DNA of 53,676 bases from Candidatus Omnitrophota bacterium. Lineage in GTDB: Bacteria; Omnitrophota; Gorgyraeia; Duberdicusellales; 4484-171. The notes beneath the pieces were generated by a model that made no database searches, had not been told where the DNA came from, and worked only from the letters and a program-made list of their open reading frames with translations. Shown piece by piece: positions 21,301 to 36,331 of this stretch. Where the stretch lies: NCBI GenBank assembly GCA_020352775.1, contig CP070684.1:788901-842576 (forward strand). Direction: 5' to 3'. Every line of letters starts with the position of its first letter. Position 1 is the stretch's first letter. Made by a program: the position numbers and the translations under genes.

Positions 21301-22044
21301 ATGCTTTTAAAGGATAAAGTCGCAATAATTACTGGCGGTTCACGTGGTATCGGCAAGGCTATTGTATTAGAATTTATAAAGGAAGGAGCAAATGTCGCTT
21401 TCAATTTTTTGAAAAGTAAAGAAAAAGCACTTGAATTGAAGAAACAAATTGAAGGGAAAGGTGCAAGAGTACTAATTTTTAAGCAAGATGTAAGAGGCTA
21501 CCGTGGGATGAAGATTATGGTGAAGAAAGTTAAACATCATTTTGGGCGGTTAGATATAATCGTGAATAACGCTGGTATAGCGCGAACCAAGAAGCTGGTG
21601 CTTATGAAAAAGCGGAATTGGGAAGACGTTTTATCCACGAGTTTATCAGGTACATTTAATCTCACGCAAGCGGCACTTGCGACGTTTATGAAACAAAAAA
21701 ACGGAAATGTCATAAATATAAGTTCTATCGCAGGCACAAAAGGTTTGCCTAGACAGGTTGATCATTCAACAGCTAAAGCAGGCATTATAGGATTTACAAA
21801 AGCACTTGCAAGAGAAATCGGGTCTTACAATGTAAGAGTTAATGCCATCGCGCCTGGCTACATCTCTACAGACATGATAAAGAATATGGCCGAGGAACAC
21901 CAGGCGAATCTGTTTAAAGAGATACCCTTAGGCAGGTTTGGTAGGCCCCAAGAGGTTGCAAAGCTTGCGGTTTTTCTTGCTTCCGATGAGGCAAAATATA
22001 TTACAGGACAAGTAATAACTATCGATGGGGGATTATCAATATAA
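21301..22044 (+). CDS. FabG-like SDR with catalytic Tyr replaced by His
   Basis: A 247-residue classical short-chain dehydrogenase closely resembling 3-oxoacyl-ACP reductase: TGGSRGIGKA cofactor loop, NNAGIAR, the Ser in NISSIAG, KALAREIGSYNVRVNAIAPG and ITGQVITIDGGLSI. The active-site YxxxK is HSTAK instead: residue 155 is His (codon CAT, 21763-21765) while Lys159 is kept. Tyr is the proton donor in this family, so normal reductase activity is doubtful unless His substitutes. It lies ahead of a GT2 gene in a sugar cassette rather than among fatty-acid genes, so a sugar-linked or non-catalytic role is possible. AAAGGA precedes the ATG. Confidence 0.88.
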   Translation: MLLKDKVAIITGGSRGIGKAIVLEFIKEGANVAFNFLKSKEKALELKKQIEGKGARVLIFKQDVRGYRGMKIMVKKVKHHFGRLDIIVNNAGIARTKKLVLMKKRNWEDVLSTSLSGTFNLTQAALATFMKQKNGNVINISSIAGTKGLPRQVDHSTAKAGIIGFTKALAREIGSYNVRVNAIAPGYISTDMIKNMAEEHQANLFKEIPLGRFGRPQEVAKLAVFLASDEAKYITGQVITIDGGLSI

Positions 22045-22074: not shown

Positions 22075-23004
22075 ATGAACAGCAATAAACCACGCCTAAG
22101 CATGGGGATGCCAGTTTATAACGGCGAGAATTATATCCGTCAAGCTTTGGATTCTTTACTTTCTCAGACATTTTCAGATTTTGAATTGATTATTTCTGAC
22201 AATGGTTCCACTGATCGGACCGAGGAGATCTGCAGAGCTTATGCGGCGCGTGACTCTCGCATACACTATTATAGAAATGAAGAGAATAGAGGCGCGGCAT
22301 GGAACTTTAATCGCGTTTTCGAATTAGCTAAGGGTGAGTATTTTAAATGGGTAGCTCATGATGATTTGCATGCCCCTGAGTTTTTCGCTAAGTGCGTTGA
22401 AGTTTTGGATCGCGATCCTTCGATAGTCCTGGCGTATGCAAAGACGGCCAAAATTGATGGGGAGGGCAAGTTATTAGATTCTATTCCCACCACTATTTAT
22501 GATTTGCATGCTGATTCATTCAGCGCATGTGAGCGTTTTCGTTATTTGATATGTGTGCGGCATTCCTGCGAGCCTATTTTTGGTGTTATTCGCAGCGACG
22601 CCCTGAAAAAAACTCCACTTATACGTAGCTTTATAGGAGTGGATCGTGCACTATTGGCACAATTAGCTCTTTTGGGGAGATTTTATGAGGTGCAGGAATT
22701 TTTATTTTTTTGGAGAAGACATTCATTGAGTTCGACTGTTATGTATACCCTTCATACAGTGGGGGGATGGTGGGATCCAGCCATAAAAGGTAAACCTGTG
22801 TTTCCGAATTCGCGACTTTTTATTGAATATATCATTTTAATAAACTGTGCTTCTTTAAAATGGAATCAGAAGTTAGTTTGTTATTTACATATAATTCGGT
22901 GGTTAAAGGGTAATTGGAGACGGCTACGGCATGATGTCGGGGTATTTGGCAGACATTTAATGTATCCTGATCGGTGGTCATATATTCAAAAAAAAGAGAA
23001 TTAA
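22075..23004 (+). CDS. GT2-type glycosyltransferase
   Basis: A 309-residue GT-A enzyme. The N-terminal family signature is SMGMPVYNGENYIRQALDSL and SDFELIISDNGSTDRTEEI, with the metal-binding acidic motif in KWVAHDDLHAPEFFAKCVEV (DD). A later region has DRALLAQLALLGRF and WRRHS. The C-terminal 60 residues are basic and hydrophobic and may lie on the membrane. It shares a nearly identical 187-base block with the second GT2 at 23852, which suggests recent duplication or gene conversion. It probably adds a sugar to the second glycan of this region; donor unknown. Confidence 0.9.
   Translation: MNSNKPRLSMGMPVYNGENYIRQALDSLLSQTFSDFELIISDNGSTDRTEEICRAYAARDSRIHYYRNEENRGAAWNFNRVFELAKGEYFKWVAHDDLHAPEFFAKCVEVLDRDPSIVLAYAKTAKIDGEGKLLDSIPTTIYDLHADSFSACERFRYLICVRHSCEPIFGVIRSDALKKTPLIRSFIGVDRALLAQLALLGRFYEVQEFLFFWRRHSLSSTVMYTLHTVGGWWDPAIKGKPVFPNSRLFIEYIILINCASLKWNQKLVCYLHIIRWLKGNWRRLRHDVGVFGRHLMYPDRWSYIQKKEN
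22165..22351 (+). repeat. 187-base near-identical block, copy 1
   Basis: Matches 23939-24125 with eight differences by my count, six of them clustered in a 12-base stretch. It encodes the nucleotide-binding core of the GT2 enzyme. Flanking regions of the two genes are much less alike. Confidence 0.9.
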
Positions 23005-23047
23005 AATGAAAGTTTAGTATCAGGAAGCCAAAATACAATTGTTCACA

Positions 23048-23797
23048 ATGTATCGAAACAAGTTTAAGAAGAAAAAAGTTTTTATTATTACAGGGGCATC
23101 CCGGGGTATAGGCAGAGCGTTATCCGCAGAGCTTGCCCGTAGTGATTCGACATTGTTTTTAATTGCGAGAAATAAAATAATGTTAGAAAAGGTAATCGAA
23201 GAAATTGGCCAAAATACTTGCGCAAAAAGCATTTTATTTGATTTAAGAAAAACAAAGCAGCTTGAAAAAATAGTGGAAGATATCTTTATGCAAGTAGATT
23301 TTAAGGAAATAGAGTCGATTACACTAATAAATAATGCAGGAATAATTTCCCCCATTACGCTTGCAGGTGGTTTTAAGCTCGAAGACGCAGTTGATAATTT
23401 GAAGGTAAACTGCATAGTTCCAATTATTCTGTCTGACATTTTTATTAGAAAAACAAAAGATTTTAAAGGAAAAAAAATTATTTTAAATATTTCTTCAGAT
23501 GCCGCAAAAACGCCAAAAGAGGGATTAAGTTTGTATTGTAGTAGTAAATCGGCAGTTGAGATGTTTAGTCAGTGTGTATCCAGAGAGCAGAGCAGGTATA
23601 AATATGGTGTCACGATATATACCTTTAGCCCCGGAGCTGTAGATACACATATGTTTTCAGAGCTTACAAAAAAAGCAAAAGAAGATTTGCCTAACGTAGA
23701 TAGTTATGTTTTGTTATCTAATTCCGGCTCCCTTAAACATCCCAGAAAAGTGGCTAAGGAAATAAATAGGTTTATTAGGGAAAAATTGGATACATGA
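23048..23797 (+). CDS. SDR-family oxidoreductase
   Basis: A 249-residue short-chain dehydrogenase. ATG 23048 is preferred to a TTG three codons upstream, since the fold begins soon after (KKVFIITGASRGIGRA). The motifs are intact: LINNAG, Ser in ILNISSDAAK, and YCSSK with Tyr and Lys. VTIYTFSPGAVDTHMFSEL resembles the sepiapterin reductase/benzil reductase-like branch more than FabG. The N-terminus is very basic (YRNKFKKKK). It lies between two GT2 genes and so may modify a sugar or small precursor. It is not close in sequence to the SDR at 21301, despite the similar arrangement of SDR then GT2. Confidence 0.85.
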   Translation: MYRNKFKKKKVFIITGASRGIGRALSAELARSDSTLFLIARNKIMLEKVIEEIGQNTCAKSILFDLRKTKQLEKIVEDIFMQVDFKEIESITLINNAGIISPITLAGGFKLEDAVDNLKVNCIVPIILSDIFIRKTKDFKGKKIILNISSDAAKTPKEGLSLYCSSKSAVEMFSQCVSREQSRYKYGVTIYTFSPGAVDTHMFSELTKKAKEDLPNVDSYVLLSNSGSLKHPRKVAKEINRFIREKLDT

Positions 23798-23851
23798 TTA
23801 ATTTAGTATTTTGCGAATATTCATGGTAAAATATGCGTTATTAACGGAATT

Positions 23852-24736
23852 ATGAGCAATAAGCCAGGCATAAGTATCGGAATGCCAGTTTATAATGGAG
23901 AGAAATATCTTTGCGAAGTGATAGATTCCATCCTTAATCAGACATTTTCAGATTTTGAATTGATTATTTCTGATAATGGTTCCACTGATCGGACCGAGGA
24001 GATCTGCAGAGCTTATGCGGCGCGTGACTCTCGCGTGTGCTACTACAGAAATGAAGAGAATAGAGGCGCGGCATGGAACTTTAATCGCGTTTTTGAATTA
24101 GCTAAGGGTGAGTATTTTAAATGGGCTGCAGTGGATGATTTGTGTGAGCCTAGTTTTTTGCAGCGTTGTGTTGAAGTTTTAGATGGTGATTCTTCTGTGG
24201 CGGTTGCTTTTACAAAATCAAAGTTTATTGATAATCTGGGTAATTTAATAGAGGAAAGGGACCCAGTATGGGATTTACAAATGGAATCTACATACCAACG
24301 TTTTCGCCAAGCAATACTTTCTAGTTGGCGCAAGTGTAATGTTATTTTTGGGTTAATACGTTCAAATTTGCTCGCAAAAACTAAGCTTATGGGTGATTAT
24401 GCTGGCCAAGATTACCATCTGGTCGCAGAGCTTAGTTTGCTGGGAAAGTTTTTTAAAATTCACGAATATTTATTCATGCGAAGGCTTCATTCGGAAGCTT
24501 CGAAATGGCAAGGTTTAAAATTCTATAAGCCGCAAGGGGGCAATAGAATAGTCAAATCAATATTTCAAATTAGCGGTGTTTTTCGTTTAAGCGGAGCTTA
24601 TCTTAAAACCATATATCAAGCCCAATTTAGTATGTTCGAAAAACTTTTTTTAACCGGAACCATCCTTTACTTATTGTGTCGTTGTTTGTGTTGGCAGCTA
24701 AAGCAAAGCTTAATTAAAAAATACAAAAAAATTTAA
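23852..24736 (+). CDS. GT2-type glycosyltransferase, paralogue of 22075-23004
   Basis: A 294-residue GT-A enzyme. It has GISIGMPVYNGEKYL, the same SDFELIISDNGSTDRTEEI core, and KWAAVDDLCEPSFLQRCVEV with the DD metal motif. The C-terminal half diverges from the first copy, which suggests a different acceptor while the donor-binding core is shared. A hydrophobic stretch near the end (LFLTGTILYLLCRCLCW) may tie it to the membrane. The start follows a TAAAATATGCG stretch and has a weak ribosome binding site. Confidence 0.9.
   Translation: MSNKPGISIGMPVYNGEKYLCEVIDSILNQTFSDFELIISDNGSTDRTEEICRAYAARDSRVCYYRNEENRGAAWNFNRVFELAKGEYFKWAAVDDLCEPSFLQRCVEVLDGDSSVAVAFTKSKFIDNLGNLIEERDPVWDLQMESTYQRFRQAILSSWRKCNVIFGLIRSNLLAKTKLMGDYAGQDYHLVAELSLLGKFFKIHEYLFMRRLHSEASKWQGLKFYKPQGGNRIVKSIFQISGVFRLSGAYLKTIYQAQFSMFEKLFLTGTILYLLCRCLCWQLKQSLIKKYKKI
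23939..24125 (+). repeat. 187-base near-identical block, copy 2
   Basis: Direct repeat of 22165-22351, same strand and same reading frame within the paralogous gene, about 1.8 kb apart. Recombination between the copies would delete one SDR and fuse the two glycosyltransferases in frame. Confidence 0.9.
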
Positions 24737-24766
24737 AGTGCATAATTGAGAAAAAGGAGGCTTAAG

Positions 24767-25540
24767 ATGAAGATTGCAATCCTTGCAGGAGGCGTTGGCA
24801 GCCGCATGGCAGGCGAAACAGAGGTTAAGCCTAAACCAATGGTAGAAATCGGAGGTAAGCCAATTTTGTGGCATATCATGATGCACTATGGTTATTATGG
24901 TTTTAAAGACTTTGTAATTGCATTGGGCTATAAAGGGGAAGTGATAAAAAAATACATGGTAGATTATTGCTCATTAAATACCAACTTGACAGTTAATTTA
25001 AAGTCGGGCGAAGTAGCAATGCATGAGTGTAGTCAGCAGGATTGGACAGTTCAGCTTATAGATACCGGGATGGATTCGCTTACCGGCACCCGCATCAAAA
25101 AGCTTACGCCTTATTTGGGAAATGAGACTTTTATGTTGACCTGGGGTGATGGAGTCTCCAATATAAATCTTCGCGATTTATTGGAATTTCACAAATCTCA
25201 CGGAAAACTTGCCACATTAACAGCGGTGCGTCCACCGGCGCGTTTCGGACATATTAGAATGGAAGATGATAAGATAATCGAGTTCTCTGAGAAACCGCAG
25301 ACTGTAGAGGGTTGGATCAACGGTGCATTTTTTGTATTAGAACCAGGGGTAATGGATTATGTTGATGATGATAAGAACGTTCAATGGGAGAAAGAGCCTT
25401 TAGAGAGACTGGCGCGAGATGGGCAACTTATGGCCTACAAACACGATTCTTTCTGGCAATGTATGGATATGCCACGCGATAAGGTATTTTTGAATGAGCT
25501 CTGGGGTATGGGTAAAGCACCCTGGAGAATTTGGGAGTAG
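24767..25540 (+). CDS. rfbF: Glucose-1-phosphate cytidylyltransferase
   Basis: A 257-residue nucleotidyltransferase that would join CTP and alpha-glucose 1-phosphate to give CDP-glucose, the entry to CDP-linked deoxysugars. Motifs: MKIAILAGGVGSRMAGETE with the sugar-nucleotide loop, KPKPMVEIGGKPILWHIM, FMLTWGDGVSNINLRDLL with the metal Asp, and GWINGAFFVLEPGVMDYV. ATG 24767 is set by AAAAAGGAGG (24751-24760); the open frame extends seven codons further. It is four bases from the following epimerase gene, so the two and the methyltransferase after them appear to be one operon. Confidence 0.93.
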   Translation: MKIAILAGGVGSRMAGETEVKPKPMVEIGGKPILWHIMMHYGYYGFKDFVIALGYKGEVIKKYMVDYCSLNTNLTVNLKSGEVAMHECSQQDWTVQLIDTGMDSLTGTRIKKLTPYLGNETFMLTWGDGVSNINLRDLLEFHKSHGKLATLTAVRPPARFGHIRMEDDKIIEFSEKPQTVEGWINGAFFVLEPGVMDYVDDDKNVQWEKEPLERLARDGQLMAYKHDSFWQCMDMPRDKVFLNELWGMGKAPWRIWE

Positions 25541-27818: not shown

Positions 27819-30095
27819 GTGAAAAGTTATAAGTTAATATCCGGCATTATTTTAACTCTGGTGGCATTAATTGTTATTGCGCTTCCGCTTCTATCCGTTG
27901 CCCCTCCCGTTAAGGAAAAAAAAATAACTATAAGAGAAAAATGGCAGCATTTTTCAAGTAAAGAAGGGCGCATTTCTGTGCCTAACGAAGGAAAAGAACA
28001 GGTTGCGAGCTTAATCCTGGATATTGATAAGGACGGCATCGATGATTTTGTTATCGCAGAACGAACCAGAATACCATCGGTTGTGTGGTACAAGTATAAA
28101 AATGGCAGCTGGAAAAAGTACGTAATTGATAATACCCCACTTAGCATCGAGGCTGGTGGCGCATTCACCGATATTGATGGCGATAGGGATTTGGATATTG
28201 TTTTTGGAGCTGACTGGAAAGACAATAAGGTTTGGTGGTGGGAAAATCCCTACCCTAATTACCAGCCAAATATTTCCTGGGTAAGGCGCACCATAAAAGC
28301 AGGCGGGGCCAAGAAGCATCATGACGAGATTTTTGGTGATTTTGACGGGGATAGGAAAGAGGAACTTGTCTTTTGGAATCAAGATGCAAAAAAGCTATTT
28401 ATTGCAGATATTCCTTCTAATCCCAGAAATATAAAAGAATGGGAGTATGCAGATATATATTCATATCGCGACAGGGAACACGAAGGGTTGGCAAAATTCG
28501 ATATCGATAAAGATGGCAAGATTGATATTGTAGGGGGCGGGCATTGGTTTAAGCATATCAAGGGTAAAAAATATAAAGCTAATCTCATTGATGGAGAACA
28601 AGTTTTCTCAAGAGCAGCTGCCGGGCAATTAAAAAGGGGCGGTTGGGCGGAAGTTGTTTTTGTGATAGGAGACGGGAAAGGGCCTTTGAAATGGTATGAA
28701 TACAAGCGCAATAGATGGATTGGGCACACTCTGCTTAATGGTGTCGATCATGGTCATTCCCTTCAGTTAGTGGATTTTAATGATGATGGACATTTGGACA
28801 TATTTTGCGCAGAGATGCGTTTAAATAGCAAAAATGAAGACGCTAAAATGTGGGTTCTTTTAGGGGATGGCAAAGGTAATTTTGAAAAAATAGTAATAGC
28901 AACAGGTTATGGCAATCATGAGTCAAGAATTGGCGACTTAAGCGGTGACGGGAAACTTGATATTTTAAGTAAACCTTATAATTGGGAAACGCCTCGCATT
29001 GATATTTGGCTTAGTGAAAAACAGGAGCAGGTGAGATTAGATGTGTGGGGAAGGCAGGTAATTGATAAAACAAAGCCATGGAGATCGGTTTTTGTTTTTT
29101 TTGCTGATATTGACGCAGATAACAAAAAAGACATCATAACTGGCGGCTGGTGGTATAAAAATCCCGGTAGTTGCGGCGGTGACTGGATAAGGCATGACAT
29201 AGGTTCACCACTTAATAATGCAGCTATTGTTTATGATTTTGATGATGACGGCGATAAAGATATTTTGGGCACAGACGGAAAAGTATACGGGAATAGATTT
29301 GTCTGGGCCCGTAATGATGGTAAGGGGTCATTTTCAATATTAAAAAATATCGAGCGGGGAAGTGGGGATTTTTTGCAAGGCACTGTTATTGGTAGTTTTG
29401 ATAATGGCAAGAGGCCACAAATAGTTCTTTCCTGGCATAAGGCCGGGAAGGGGTTACAGCTACTAGAGGTCCCCTTAAATCCATCGAATGAGCTTTGGAG
29501 AATCCGTAAAATAACTTCTGTATCGCAAGATGAGGGCTTAAGTGCAGGCGATATAGACAATGATGGTGACAAAGACCTTTTGCTTGGAACAAAATGGTTA
29601 AGGAACGATAAGAATGCATGGAGGACATTTACTATCTATCATGGAAGCGAGCCGCCTGACAGAAATAGATTAGCCGATATCAATAATGACGGGAAACTGG
29701 ATGCGATAGTCGGATTTGAAGCAATTAATAGAGCTGGTAAAATAGCCTGGTATGAGCAGAGAGATGCAATAAGCGATTGGCAAGAGCACATTATTGATAG
29801 GATAATAGGGCCGATGAGCCTGGATGTTGCTGATATGGATGCGGATGGTGATTTGGATGTTATTGTTGGGGAGCACAACTTACGAAACCCAAAGAGGGCA
29901 AAACTTTATATTTATGAGAATGATGGCAGGGGAGAGAATTGGAAAAAGCACATTGTATATATAGGAGATGAACATCATGATGGTGCTCAGTCTATTGACA
30001 TTGATGGTGATGGAGATTTGGATATAGTTTCGATAGGATGGGGTCATGATCGAGTTATTATTTATGAAAATAGGGCAATTAATGTGAAAGAATGA
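27819..30095 (+). CDS. Exported FG-GAP/VCBS repeat protein
   Basis: A 758-residue protein with an N-terminal signal/anchor helix (LISGIILTLVALIVIALPLL). The rest has about twelve calcium-binding loops of the DxDxDGxxD type, for example DIDKDGIDDFVI, DIDGDRDLDIVFG, DFNDDGHLDIFC, DIDNDGDKDLLLG, DMDADGDLDVIVG and DIDGDGDLDIVS, spread from about residue 65 to 745. These are FG-GAP/VCBS blades that form one or two beta-propellers on the cell surface and bind sugars or proteins. GTG 27819 is the only start before the signal. Its stop overlaps the next methyltransferase start as ATGA. That tight link to a sugar methyltransferase is unusual and suggests the protein acts with the polymer made here. 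Confidence 0.88.
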   Translation: MKSYKLISGIILTLVALIVIALPLLSVAPPVKEKKITIREKWQHFSSKEGRISVPNEGKEQVASLILDIDKDGIDDFVIAERTRIPSVVWYKYKNGSWKKYVIDNTPLSIEAGGAFTDIDGDRDLDIVFGADWKDNKVWWWENPYPNYQPNISWVRRTIKAGGAKKHHDEIFGDFDGDRKEELVFWNQDAKKLFIADIPSNPRNIKEWEYADIYSYRDREHEGLAKFDIDKDGKIDIVGGGHWFKHIKGKKYKANLIDGEQVFSRAAAGQLKRGGWAEVVFVIGDGKGPLKWYEYKRNRWIGHTLLNGVDHGHSLQLVDFNDDGHLDIFCAEMRLNSKNEDAKMWVLLGDGKGNFEKIVIATGYGNHESRIGDLSGDGKLDILSKPYNWETPRIDIWLSEKQEQVRLDVWGRQVIDKTKPWRSVFVFFADIDADNKKDIITGGWWYKNPGSCGGDWIRHDIGSPLNNAAIVYDFDDDGDKDILGTDGKVYGNRFVWARNDGKGSFSILKNIERGSGDFLQGTVIGSFDNGKRPQIVLSWHKAGKGLQLLEVPLNPSNELWRIRKITSVSQDEGLSAGDIDNDGDKDLLLGTKWLRNDKNAWRTFTIYHGSEPPDRNRLADINNDGKLDAIVGFEAINRAGKIAWYEQRDAISDWQEHIIDRIIGPMSLDVADMDADGDLDVIVGEHNLRNPKRAKLYIYENDGRGENWKKHIVYIGDEHHDGAQSIDIDGDGDLDIVSIGWGHDRVIIYENRAINVKE

Positions 30096-31270
30096 CAGAA
30101 AAGAGACTTTGTCCCAGCTGCGGCAAGCCCAACATAAATGTTTTTTATAAAGTAGGGAATGTGCCGGTTCACAGTGTTTTAAATCTGGATACCAGAGAAA
30201 AAGCAATCCAGTATCCTAAGGGGAGCGTAGAGTTGGGGTTTTGCCAGTATTGCGGTTTTATTTTTAATACCGTTTTTGATCCATCCTTACCAGAATATAC
30301 TTCGGGATATGAAGCAACTCAAACCTTTTCGCCGACATTCAATGCTTTTCATCAAAAACTGGCTACAGAGTTAATTAAGCGCTATGGTTTACGAAATAAA
30401 ACCGTTATCGAGATAGGCTGTGGCAACGGAGAGTTTTTAACATTGCTGTGTAAGCTGGGGGATAATAAGGGTGTAGGATTTGACCCTTCATTTAATGCGC
30501 AGAGGTTACCACCGGAAGGGAAAAATCGCGTTAGCTTTATAAAAGATTTTTACTCTGAAAAATATAGTAATCTTGACGCAGATTTTATTTACAGCAAAAT
30601 GACCCTTGAGCATATTCATGATCCGGCAGATTTTATAAGTATGATCCGGCGCTCAATAAAAAAAGATGATACAACGGTATTTTTCCAACTTCCTGAAGTA
30701 AGGCGAATCCTGCGCGATCTTGCTTTTTGGGATATATATTATGAACATAGCTCATATTTTAGCAGGGGGTCTTTGGCAAGATTATTTAGAGGGTGTGGTT
30801 TTGACGTGTTAGATTTATGGACAGAGTATGATAATCAATACCTCATGGTAACAGCAAGGATTAATCGCGCAAAAAAGTCAACGATTCTTTCTCAGGAAGA
30901 TGATATCGATGCGTTAAGTAAAGAAATGGATTATTTTGCTAAAAATACTCCAAAAAGAATAGCACAGTGGCGGCAAAAAATATACGGCATTAGAGACAGG
31001 GGAAAGCGGGTTGTGATATGGAGTGCAAGCTCCAAAGGAGTTGCTTTTTTAACAACACTGGGCATTCAAGATGAAATTGAATACGTAGTAGACATAAATC
31101 CTTACCGGCAAGGATATTATATGGCTGGTAGCGGACAAAGAATAGTGGGGCCCGACTTTTTAAAGGATTATCGTCCTGATGCAGTCATAGCTATGAATCC
31201 TATTTACAAAGAAGAAATAAAAAATATACTTGGCGAAAGAGAACTGTATCCAGAGGTCTTTGCAGTTTGA
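30092..31270 (+). CDS. Class I methyltransferase, C-methyltransferase family
   Basis: A 392-residue relative of the enzyme at 26572. It has an N-terminal zinc-type cluster (LCPSCGKPN, FCQYCGFIFN), a SAM core (TVIEIGCGNGEFLTLLCKLG, then GFDPS) and a C-terminal Rossmann-like domain (RVVIWSASSKGVAFLTTLGI, VVDINPYRQGYYMAGSGQ). The second domain is present, but the His-rich catalytic stretch of NovU-type enzymes is replaced by IYYEHSSYFSRGSLARLF. So it may methylate a different position or substrate. ATG 30092 overlaps the VCBS gene stop. Confidence 0.87.
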   Translation: MTEKRLCPSCGKPNINVFYKVGNVPVHSVLNLDTREKAIQYPKGSVELGFCQYCGFIFNTVFDPSLPEYTSGYEATQTFSPTFNAFHQKLATELIKRYGLRNKTVIEIGCGNGEFLTLLCKLGDNKGVGFDPSFNAQRLPPEGKNRVSFIKDFYSEKYSNLDADFIYSKMTLEHIHDPADFISMIRRSIKKDDTTVFFQLPEVRRILRDLAFWDIYYEHSSYFSRGSLARLFRGCGFDVLDLWTEYDNQYLMVTARINRAKKSTILSQEDDIDALSKEMDYFAKNTPKRIAQWRQKIYGIRDRGKRVVIWSASSKGVAFLTTLGIQDEIEYVVDINPYRQGYYMAGSGQRIVGPDFLKDYRPDAVIAMNPIYKEEIKNILGERELYPEVFAV

Positions 31271-31286
31271 TTTGTTGGAGTCTAAG

Positions 31287-32459
31287 ATGGAAAGAATAGA
31301 CGATAAATGCCTGGTATGTGGGTCAACAGCTGTTAAGCAGTTTTTTGAGGTTAGAGGGGCGCCAATTATGGGAAATACTCCCTTTCCTACTAGAGAGTCG
31401 GCACGAAATGTGGGGCGGGCTGAGATGAGACTGGAATTTTGTCAAAAATGCGGACATATATTTAATGGTGCGTTTGACTCTAAGCGTACAGAATATAACG
31501 AGGGCTATGAGAATCCCCTACATTATTCATCTCGCTTCAAAGCGTATAATGCAGAGCTTATTGCACGTTTAATAAATACTTACGATTTGCACAATAAGAA
31601 GATAATGGATGTCGGAGGCGGCAAGGGACATTTTTTGAATTTGTTATGCAAAGAGGGGAACAATCAGGGGATTTGTTTTGATCCGGCGTGCGAAGTGGAG
31701 CAAGCCCAAAAAAGTACCGGCCCCATAACATTCATAAAGGATTTTTATTCTGAAAAATATAGAGATTATAAAGCTGATTTAATTTGCTGCAGACATGTTC
31801 TAGAGCATATTTATTCCCTGCGTCAATTTTTGGATTTAATACGCCATGCTATTTCGGACAAAGCCAATGCATTTGTGTTTTTTGAGGTTCCTAATGCAGA
31901 TTACGTGTTTAAAGATTTAAGTGTCTGGGATTTACTTTATGAACATTGTTCCTATTTTACCAAAAATTCACTTCATTATTTATTTGCCGTATCAGGATTT
32001 AGGGTTTGCAATTTATTTGAGACCTACAAAGATCAATATCTTTGCATCGAAGCAAAACCAGCTACAAAAAGTGCAGAAATAAAAAATTATGACATGGAAA
32101 AAGTTATTCATAGTGTGGAGAGGTTTGGTGAAAAATATCAAAAGAAAATAGAAACTTGGCGTCAGAAATTTGAAAGCTTAAAACAAGCCAACAAAAAAGC
32201 AGTAGTTTGGGGGGCGGGAACTAAGGGGGTAATGTTTTTAAATATGCTTAAAATAGAGGATCAAATTGAATATGTAGTTGACATCAATCCCAATAAGCAA
32301 GGACGATATATTGCTGGCGCAGGCCAAAAAATAATCACCCCTGATTTTTTAAAAGAATATAAGCCAGATACGATTGTTATTATGAACCAAATATATGAAA
32401 ATGAAATTAAACAGATTTTAAATAATTTAGAGATAAGTGCTGAATTTCTATATGCATAG
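31287..32459 (+). CDS. Class I methyltransferase, paralogue of 30092-31270
   Basis: A 390-residue protein. ATG 31287 is taken as start (MERIDDKCLVCGS); the open frame overlaps the previous gene for 19 codons, but the homologous N-terminus begins here, 16 bases after the upstream stop. Parallel motifs: CLVCGS/FCQKCGHIFN, KIMDVGGGKGHFLNLLCKEG, LLYEHCSYFTKNSLHYLF, and KAVVWGAGTKGVMFLNMLKI with VVDINPNKQGRYIAGAGQ. It is clearly a tandem duplicate of the gene before it, diverged over the whole length. The pair probably acts on one sugar in two steps or on two sugars. Confidence 0.87.
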   Translation: MERIDDKCLVCGSTAVKQFFEVRGAPIMGNTPFPTRESARNVGRAEMRLEFCQKCGHIFNGAFDSKRTEYNEGYENPLHYSSRFKAYNAELIARLINTYDLHNKKIMDVGGGKGHFLNLLCKEGNNQGICFDPACEVEQAQKSTGPITFIKDFYSEKYRDYKADLICCRHVLEHIYSLRQFLDLIRHAISDKANAFVFFEVPNADYVFKDLSVWDLLYEHCSYFTKNSLHYLFAVSGFRVCNLFETYKDQYLCIEAKPATKSAEIKNYDMEKVIHSVERFGEKYQKKIETWRQKFESLKQANKKAVVWGAGTKGVMFLNMLKIEDQIEYVVDINPNKQGRYIAGAGQKIITPDFLKEYKPDTIVIMNQIYENEIKQILNNLEISAEFLYA

Positions 32460-33217: not shown

Positions 33218-36200
33218 ATGGTTATTTTGTTAGGTATTTTAGTATTTGTGGCATTGATTGTTGTTGTTCCAGTCCTATTTTCAGGCGGATCCCTTCCATT
33301 CAAAAAACACCGAGAAGAAGATCCACTTCTAGTCAGAGAAAGAAAAATCGAAAGGCTAGAGAACAAAATTAAAGACCTTGAAAGCGAATTAGAAAAAACT
33401 AAATCAGATAGAGAGAAAGTATCAACAAAACTCGAGACTAGTGAGAAACACGCGATTGATTTAGAAAATGAGCTGGAAAAACAAAAAAAGTGGGTCGAGA
33501 ATGTTCAGGGTATGCTAGATAGAGCAAAAGAAGAGCTTGCCCCCGTGGAAGAGAAGTTATCCAAGAAAGATAAAGAGCTACAGAAGGTCTTTGAGAAAAG
33601 TGTTAAGCTGGAGAAAGACCTTCGTCAAGCCCAGGAGCGTGTGCGCGAAATAGAGGCGGAGAAGAAAGAGCTGGTTTTTGAAGCCATTCCTTTGCAGAAA
33701 AAGCTAGAGGAGTATGAAGAAGAAGTAAAAAAACACATTGAAATTATCGAAGAACATAAGAGAAAAGAAAGAGAAAGCTCATTTGTGTCGAAAGATGAGC
33801 ATGAACGTATTCTTGGTGAATACGACAAATTAGAGAAAGAACTCGATGCTACTGCCAAGGAATTAGAGCATAAAGATATTAAGCTCCAGAAAGCAATTAG
33901 CCAGCTTGTCGACTTAGAAAACAAATTAAAAGGTGAAGTCGATTCCATGGAGGCTGAAGTGGCGAAAAAAGAAGAAGCTAAGCCTGCCGCTGAGGAAGAA
34001 GAGAAAACAGCCGAGGCTAAGCCAGAAGAGGAAGTAAAAGCAGAAGAGGAAAAAGAAGAAGCAGTTGCTCCACCTAAAGAAGAAGCCGTTCCCAAAGAGG
34101 AAAAGCCTGTTGCGGAAGAAGCCAAGCCAGCCAAAGAAGCTCCCACCCCAGCTCAAGAAGAAAAGCCTGAAGAAAAGGAGGAAGAAGCTGTCCCCGAGAA
34201 AGAAAAGGTTGTAGCAGAAGCTAAAATAGAAGCTCCCGAAGTTAATTTAGAGGCATTAAGAAATATCGGCATTATGGCACATATTGATGCTGGTAAGACC
34301 ACTCTTACTGAGAGGATTTTATTTTATACAGGACGTACTCATAAAATCGGAGAGGTGCACGAAGGGGCTGCACAGATGGATTGGATGAAACAGGAGCAGG
34401 AGCGAGGAATTACGATAACAAGTGCTGCTACCACTTGCGAATGGGATGGACATTCCATAAATATTATCGATACTCCCGGACACGTTGATTTTACGGTTGA
34501 AGTTGAACGCAGCTTACGTATATTAGATGGTGCGGTGGCAGTGTTTTGTGCGGTGGGAGGGGTAGAGCCACAGACTGAGACAGTATGGCGCCAATCTGAT
34601 AAGTATAAAGTGCCTAAGCTTGCCTTTATCAATAAAATGGATAGGGTAGGGGCGGATTTCTATGCCGTGTTTAAGGGGATTGAGGATAGGTTGCAGGCAA
34701 CCCCCGTGCCACTACAAATTCCTATTGGCAGCGAAGAAAAGTTTAAAGGCGTGGTCGATCTTATCGAACGTAAAGCGTATATCTATGATGAGACTTCTTT
34801 AGGCGAAAAATTCAATGCAGAAGACGTCCCGGCCGAACTTACTGAACTTGTTACTGAATACCGCCATATTATGGTTGAGCGAGCAGCTTCTTGTGACGAT
34901 GTTTTAATGAAGAAATATCTTGAATCAGAGGAGTCTGTCACTGAAGAAGAGTTAATATCTGCCATTCGCAAAGGGACTATTGCACATAAAATCGTTCCAG
35001 TATTGTGTGGCACAGCATTGAAGAATAAAGGGGTACAGAAGCTACTTGATGCAATAAATTTATATTTACCCTCACCGTTAGATTTACCTCCCATAGAAGG
35101 CCATGACGCCCAGGACCCAGAAAAAGCTATTGCCCGAAAGCCCGATACTAAAGAGCCTTTTTCAGCCCTTGCTTTTAAGATACAGGCCGACCCCCATATT
35201 GGAAAACTTGTATTTTTAAGAGTATATTCCGGCTATCTTCCTGCGGGCTCCTATGTCCTTAATGCTAGTAAGGATAAGAAGGAACGTGTAGGCAGGATTG
35301 TGCAGATGCATGCCAATCAGCGTGAAAACCGTAAAGACATGCGCGCCGGAGACATTGTAGGTGTAGTAGGCTTAAGCCATACCATTACCGGAGACACTTT
35401 GTGTGATGCAGATAATCCGGTAGTGCTTGAAGCGATGGAGTTTCCCGCCCCAGTTATAGCCATAAGTATTAAGCCTGAAAGCCGTAGCGATCAAGATAAG
35501 CTCGCTAAGGGATTGACGAAACTATCAGAGGAAGACCCTACCTTTACTGTTGAGACTGATGAGGAGACCAATGAGATAATTCTTTCTGGAATGGGAGAAT
35601 TGCATCTTGAAATCTTGGTGGATAGGCTAAAGGAGGAATTTAAAGTTAAGGCAGAAGTAGGCCAGCCCAAAGTAGCTTATAAAGAAACTATCCTGGGTAC
35701 AGTAAAAGAGGAGTATAAACACATTAAGCAGACCGGAGGGAGGGGCCAATATGGTCATGTAATCATGGAAATATCTCCCGCCAACAGAGAGCAAGGCTTT
35801 GAGTTTACTGACAGTATTGTAGGAGGTAGGATTCCAAAGTCTTTTATCCCATCAGTAGAGAAGGGGGTCGTGGCGGCGATGCAAAAGGGAATACTTGCTG
35901 GTTGTCCCGTAGTGGATGTTAAGGTTAATCTTGTTGATGGATCGTACCATGAAGTTGATTCATCTGATATCGCATTTAGGATGGCTGCTAGGGGTTGTTT
36001 CCATCAGGCTTTTATGAAGTGTAATCCTGTTTTACTTGAGCCCTATATGCGGCTTGAGATTATGACTCCTGAGGAGTCTGTCAGTAATATCGTAGGTAAT
36101 ATCTGTTCCCGTAGAGGAAAGATTTTAGGTATGGACGCCAAAGGAAACCAGAAAGTCGTTACTGCCCTTGCGCCTTTAGCAGAACTATTTGGCTATGCCA

Positions 36201-36331
36201 CTACCGTACGTTCGTTAAGCAGTGGCCGGGCCAGCTGTTCGATGCATTTTGAGAAGTATGAAGAAGTGCCGGCTGAAGTCGCAAACAAGATAATCGAGGA
36301 AAGAAAGAAACAGAAACAAGAAGGAAAGTAA
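33218..36331 (+). CDS. fusA: Elongation factor G fused to a membrane helix, coiled coil and acidic linker
   Basis: A 1037-residue protein, about 340 longer than normal EF-G. Residues 2-22 are a membrane helix; about 40-245 a heptad-rich coiled coil ([15 protein letters not shown]); about 246-340 a linker of Glu, Lys, Ala and Pro. EF-G then begins with [10 protein letters not shown] and is complete: P-loop AHIDAGKTT (354-362), switch [18 protein letters not shown] (418-422), NKMD (472-475), domain II, domain IV with GGRGQYGH and [14 protein letters not shown], and domain V ending [16 protein letters not shown]. All key GTPase residues are kept. EF-G drives translocation and, with RRF, ribosome recycling. 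AAGGGGA precedes ATG 33218. The frame is unbroken across the junction. An internal ATG (33947, Met244) could give a form without the coiled coil. Confidence 0.92.

Follow-up and report, generated by a model that had tools for sequence, protein, structure and literature searches.

Two GT2 glycosyltransferase genes of a Candidatus Omnitrophota genome, A and B, which share one orientation and are spaced 1.8 kb apart, have very probably undergone ectopic gene conversion over a tract of ~187 bases, copied probably from A into B. The case is clear but ordinary and represents a known kind of event. The process, its direction and its lack of effect on enzyme specificity are what we infer from sequence comparison. 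In brief, A and B would be old members of a single GT2 family that have diverged strongly, and a recent, non-reciprocal homologous recombination would have copied the tract from one to the other, probably from A over B. The two proteins would have retained separate starts and separate C-terminal parts, and enzyme specificity would be unaffected by the exchange. Positions refer to the window, i.e. the whole stretch of 53,676 nucleotides that was analyzed.

Two diverged GT2 genes share a nearly identical core

Gene A, the probable donor, occupies 22075-23004 (+ strand) and encodes 309 aa, and gene B, the probable recipient, occupies 23852-24736 (+ strand) and encodes 294 aa, with 1777 bases separating their start codons. 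Both are predicted to be GT2 glycosyltransferases because they score far above the gathering cut-off (23.3) of PF00535 (Glycos_transf_2), with 117.5 bits (E 7.7e-34) for A and 117.6 bits (E 7.2e-34) for B. No NCBIfam equivalog reaches its cut-off for either protein. The homogenized tract corresponds to 22165-22351 in A and 23939-24125 in B (both + strand). The two blocks give a gap-free alignment with exactly 8 mismatches in 187 bases (positions 22200, 22261, 22263, 22264, 22265, 22269, 22272, and 22320 in the A copy), the block being composed of exact runs of 36, 60, 47, and 31 bases. Over all aligned codons, 305 of 813 bases differ between the two genes. The preliminary description, which had reported a nearly identical 187-base core in otherwise diverged GT2 genes, was thus accurate.

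The base-by-base alignment that it had proposed as a check shows that identity drops sharply on both sides of the block. Across most of the core, a 30-base window has 29-30 matching bases, a count that falls to 19-25 on the upstream side and to 11-24 on the downstream side. A repeat finder returned a single 300-nt family with a spacing of 1774 and 86% identity overall. A similar identity along the whole genes is excluded. When the A-B differences were shuffled, a 60-base identical run was never obtained (0/20000). A weaker statistic, the longest unchanged run of identical-residue codons (20), was matched in 4586 of 100000 shuffles. A genome-wide DNA search, covering the single contig of 1,275,236 bases, found the block in these two copies only.

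Shape and direction of the tract

Six of the eight differences fall within 12 bases, at 22261-22272 in A and, offset by 1774, at 24035-24046 in B (both + strand), a clustering equaled in only 10 of 200000 random placements. The lone differences at 22200 and 22320 are both silent. Because the 50% difference of this island resembles that of the flanks, it is most simply viewed as sequence that would have stayed unconverted, from either patchy repair or two conversion events.

Gene A is probably the donor, although the pointers are weak. The GC content of the core is 0.42 in A and 0.43 in B, closer to that of the rest of A (0.40) than to that of the rest of B (0.36). A regression of core likeness across relatives favored A in 0.98 of 2000 bootstraps, a result that points only weakly to A because the query used to collect those relatives was itself led by A.

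Relatedness differs inside and outside the core

We ranked protein similarity by setting A and B against 84 other family members (ranks are therefore out of 85). In the core, A and B are 97% identical, the next relative reaches 82%, and the partner ranks first. Outside the core, B ranks only 35th (residues 1-30), 22nd (93-220), and 32nd (93-end) among the relatives of A; the corresponding ranks of A among those of B are 16th, 11th, and 13th. In these outer parts, A has its nearest relative in a Schekmanbacteria protein (L016), and those of B by identity are L054 and L032, from KSB1 and Jettenia genomes. Among the matches listed, no family member from outside this genome exceeds 73% DNA identity to the core of either gene over at least 150 bases. 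A and B are thus each other's closest relatives inside the core, but have many closer relatives outside it, which supports the gene conversion that the preliminary description had proposed, as does the confinement of silent-site identity to the tract.

We also considered whether A and B are non-sisters outside the core. Trees built from non-core columns separate them, but did not reject the sister placement in AU tests (p = 0.58, 0.375, and 0.384), and in the first test the tree with A and B as sisters was 3.4 log units higher. For one tree set, 22 of 86 rows were dropped as long, gappy, duplicate, or distant. These analyses therefore establish great divergence rather than separate origins, and A and B may have arisen by an ancient tandem duplication or been acquired separately. 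Whichever origin they have, the core is, by these comparisons, much younger than its flanks. Within the same family, L018 (from a Gracilibacteria bin) and L019 (from a Hydrococcus bin) are near-identical GT2 proteins, with end branches of 0.016 and 0.066, a likeness that suggests mis-binning or recent transfer.

Close relatives of the locus are scarce. None of the 36 other genomes of the same taxonomic family has a match at E 1e-40, and thus no orthologous locus was found in them at that threshold. In a 384-genome sample of the phylum, four genomes besides that of the window have distant members at E 1e-30, and viral contigs yielded only five weak relatives.

Exchange, constraint, and other explanations

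A block could stay alike without exchange under strong constraint on protein or DNA. Indeed, conservation in this GT2 family is higher in the core than elsewhere (relatives have a mean identity with gene A of 0.67 over the core and 0.36 beyond it), so that protein likeness alone proves little. Silent sites contradict this explanation. Taking codons 31-92 of gene A as the core in all codon counts, 4 of 60 identical-residue codons changed between A and B in the core versus 35 of 86 in the rest (Fisher 2.7e-6; pairwise alignment), and a separate multiple alignment gave 39 of 82 for the rest. Fourfold-degenerate sites changed at 0 of 21 positions in the core versus 15 of 29 elsewhere (Fisher 3.6e-5), and therefore protein constraint alone is no explanation. 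In addition, among 39 within-genome paralogue pairs from 15 other genomes, the fraction of identical-residue codons that changed in the same core is 0.21-0.65, a range outside which the A-B pair (0.07) falls. The comparison pairs were matches at E 1e-25, with 15 of 30 genomes having two or more. Constraint in place of exchange is therefore hardly credible. Silent-site identity is limited to a bounded tract with diverged homologous sequence at both ends: residues 1-30 differ at 23 of 87 bases and 3 of 7 fourfold sites, and the sequence from residue 93 onward is diverged, yet aligned at one spacing with residues 1-30.

With diverged sequence on either side, aligned at one and the same spacing, the tract is internal, which argues against a one-sided fusion. 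This bears on a further scenario, in which a whole-gene tandem duplication was followed by flank replacement, or in which a copied 5' part was fused to another 3' part to yield a hybrid. The alternation of short-chain dehydrogenase (SDR) and GT2 genes in the order SDR-A-SDR-B would fit it, and so would a Sulfuricurvum pair (see below), in which the genes are alike from almost their first codons and can hardly be aligned beyond the shared part. In A and B, however, the block is internal, and the best NCBIfam family is not the same for the two SDR genes, making such a duplication or fusion improbable. Even less credit can be given to an assembly chimera. The genome is likely of metagenomic origin, but it is a single 1.275 Mb contig in which the two copies are unlike at 8 sites and both frames are intact. 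The same differences and the two open frames also make collapse of one copy unlikely. Gene conversion between A and B is thus the explanation that we retain.

The geometry of the blocks had also been read as a ready route to glycan phase variation, in which recombination between direct repeats deletes 1774 bases and creates a hybrid transferase. The geometric part of this proposal stands: the repeats are in direct orientation with exact runs of up to 60 bases, and deletion between them predicts an uninterrupted in-frame hybrid of 295 residues. However, the genome holds only two copies of the block, the window contains no inverted repeats of at least 40 bases, no recombinase was found among the ten genes scanned, and the deletion would be irreversible and would remove the intervening SDR gene. 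As for hypermutable repeats, the longest homopolymer within 22075-24736 is 8 bases, and no simple repeat with units of 2-5 was detected there at the set thresholds. The repeat geometry is thus all that speaks for phase variation, and we consider a working device very improbable.

The tract in the context of the GT2 fold

The tract corresponds to residues 31-92. It begins past the first GT2 motif (residues 8-18) and takes in the D42-bearing strand and loop. It ends just short of the D96-D97 pair, which in alignment falls on the DxD region of GT2 enzymes with solved structures. We take the D42 and D96-D97 regions to hold nucleotide and metal, as in GT2 structures. Gene A resembles two such enzymes, K4 chondroitin synthase (2z87; residues 6-157 of A align, E 1.9e-21) and SpsA (1h7l; residues 6-123 align, E 3.3e-16). 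The first GT2 motif (here residues 11-18) and the DD pair are identical in the two proteins even though they lie outside the tract. The name donor-binding core, used in the preliminary description, is therefore apt only in part, as the tract includes the D42 strand and loop but not the first motif or D96-D97. A modular exchange may have preserved acceptor specificity.

The Neisseria pilE/pilS system (PMC5445459) likewise copies a segment between related genes of one genome, by programmed, repeated conversion with silent donors. In contrast, the A/B case involves one tract, two intact genes, and zero silent copies. Among the publications listed, judged by title and abstract opening, none dealt with gene conversion in a GT2 core.

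Genomic neighborhood

Gene A is preceded by a FabG-like short-chain dehydrogenase gene (21301-22044, + strand; PF13561, E 1.4e-65; NF009466 above cut-off). A second short-chain dehydrogenase gene lies between A and B (23039-23797, + strand; PF00106, E 1.4e-33), its best NCBIfam match, NF005381, being below cut-off. Gene B is followed by a glucose-1-phosphate cytidylyltransferase gene (24746-25540, + strand; TIGR02623, 343.5 bits, cut-off 300.25). Other neighboring genes encode polysaccharide export, chain-length, epimerase-like, and C-methyltransferase-like proteins. Given these neighbors, the locus likely builds a surface polysaccharide containing a CDP-linked sugar.

Two other features of the window deserve mention. 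Adjoining methyltransferase-like genes at 30092-32459 have a common 84-base segment with 74% identity, possibly an older tandem duplication. At 33218-36331, an ORF of 1037 aa combines a long charge-rich, coiled-coil-like N-terminal part with a part that, as judged by eye, resembles elongation factor G, and whether it is a fusion or has a wrong start is worth checking.

A second adjacent pair in Sulfuricurvum

We searched for adjacent GT2 pairs in 79 genomes reached through loci, 298 genomes of one phylum (E 1e-25), and 386 of another (E 1e-40; five candidates scored per genome). This identified one pair beyond the window, in a Sulfuricurvum genome (L186; G426:C16:500-2400), whose core is identical at 87% of bases. 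Approximately 90 N-terminal residues, from near residue 10 to ~99, are shared at close to 86% of bases, and the two genes become practically unalignable immediately past the DD motif. Of the identical-residue codons, 11 of 53 changed in the core and 26 of 55 in the remainder (p = 0.0046, without correction for the 39 pairs compared). As in A and B, the N-terminal parts are alike and the C-terminal parts diverged, a parallel suggesting that the N-terminal part may be reused recurrently. Unlike in A and B, the shared part starts near the N terminus and the remainder is practically unalignable, which suggests that duplication with C-terminal replacement fits this pair as well. The first gene of the pair has no match at E 1e-30 in 189 relatives of that genome, and each of the 25 plasmid records with a match has it in one place.

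Only two adjacent GT2 pairs (<2 kb apart) were thus seen, in two phyla, and although both share the N-terminal part, the number is small. It is a rather doubtful generalization that, in polysaccharide clusters, adjacent GT2 genes repeatedly have the N-terminal nucleotide-binding part in common or overwrite it in one another, with the C-terminal parts remaining separate and the junction near the DD motif. If true, such recurrent module reuse would be a process that diversifies glycans. A and B themselves offer a clean example, from an uncultured lineage, of part exchange among bacterial sugar-transferase genes. Were the pattern general for adjacent GT2 genes, it would provide a simple rule for the diversification of glycan-building enzymes, and trees and annotations derived from the N-terminal GT2 part could mislead.
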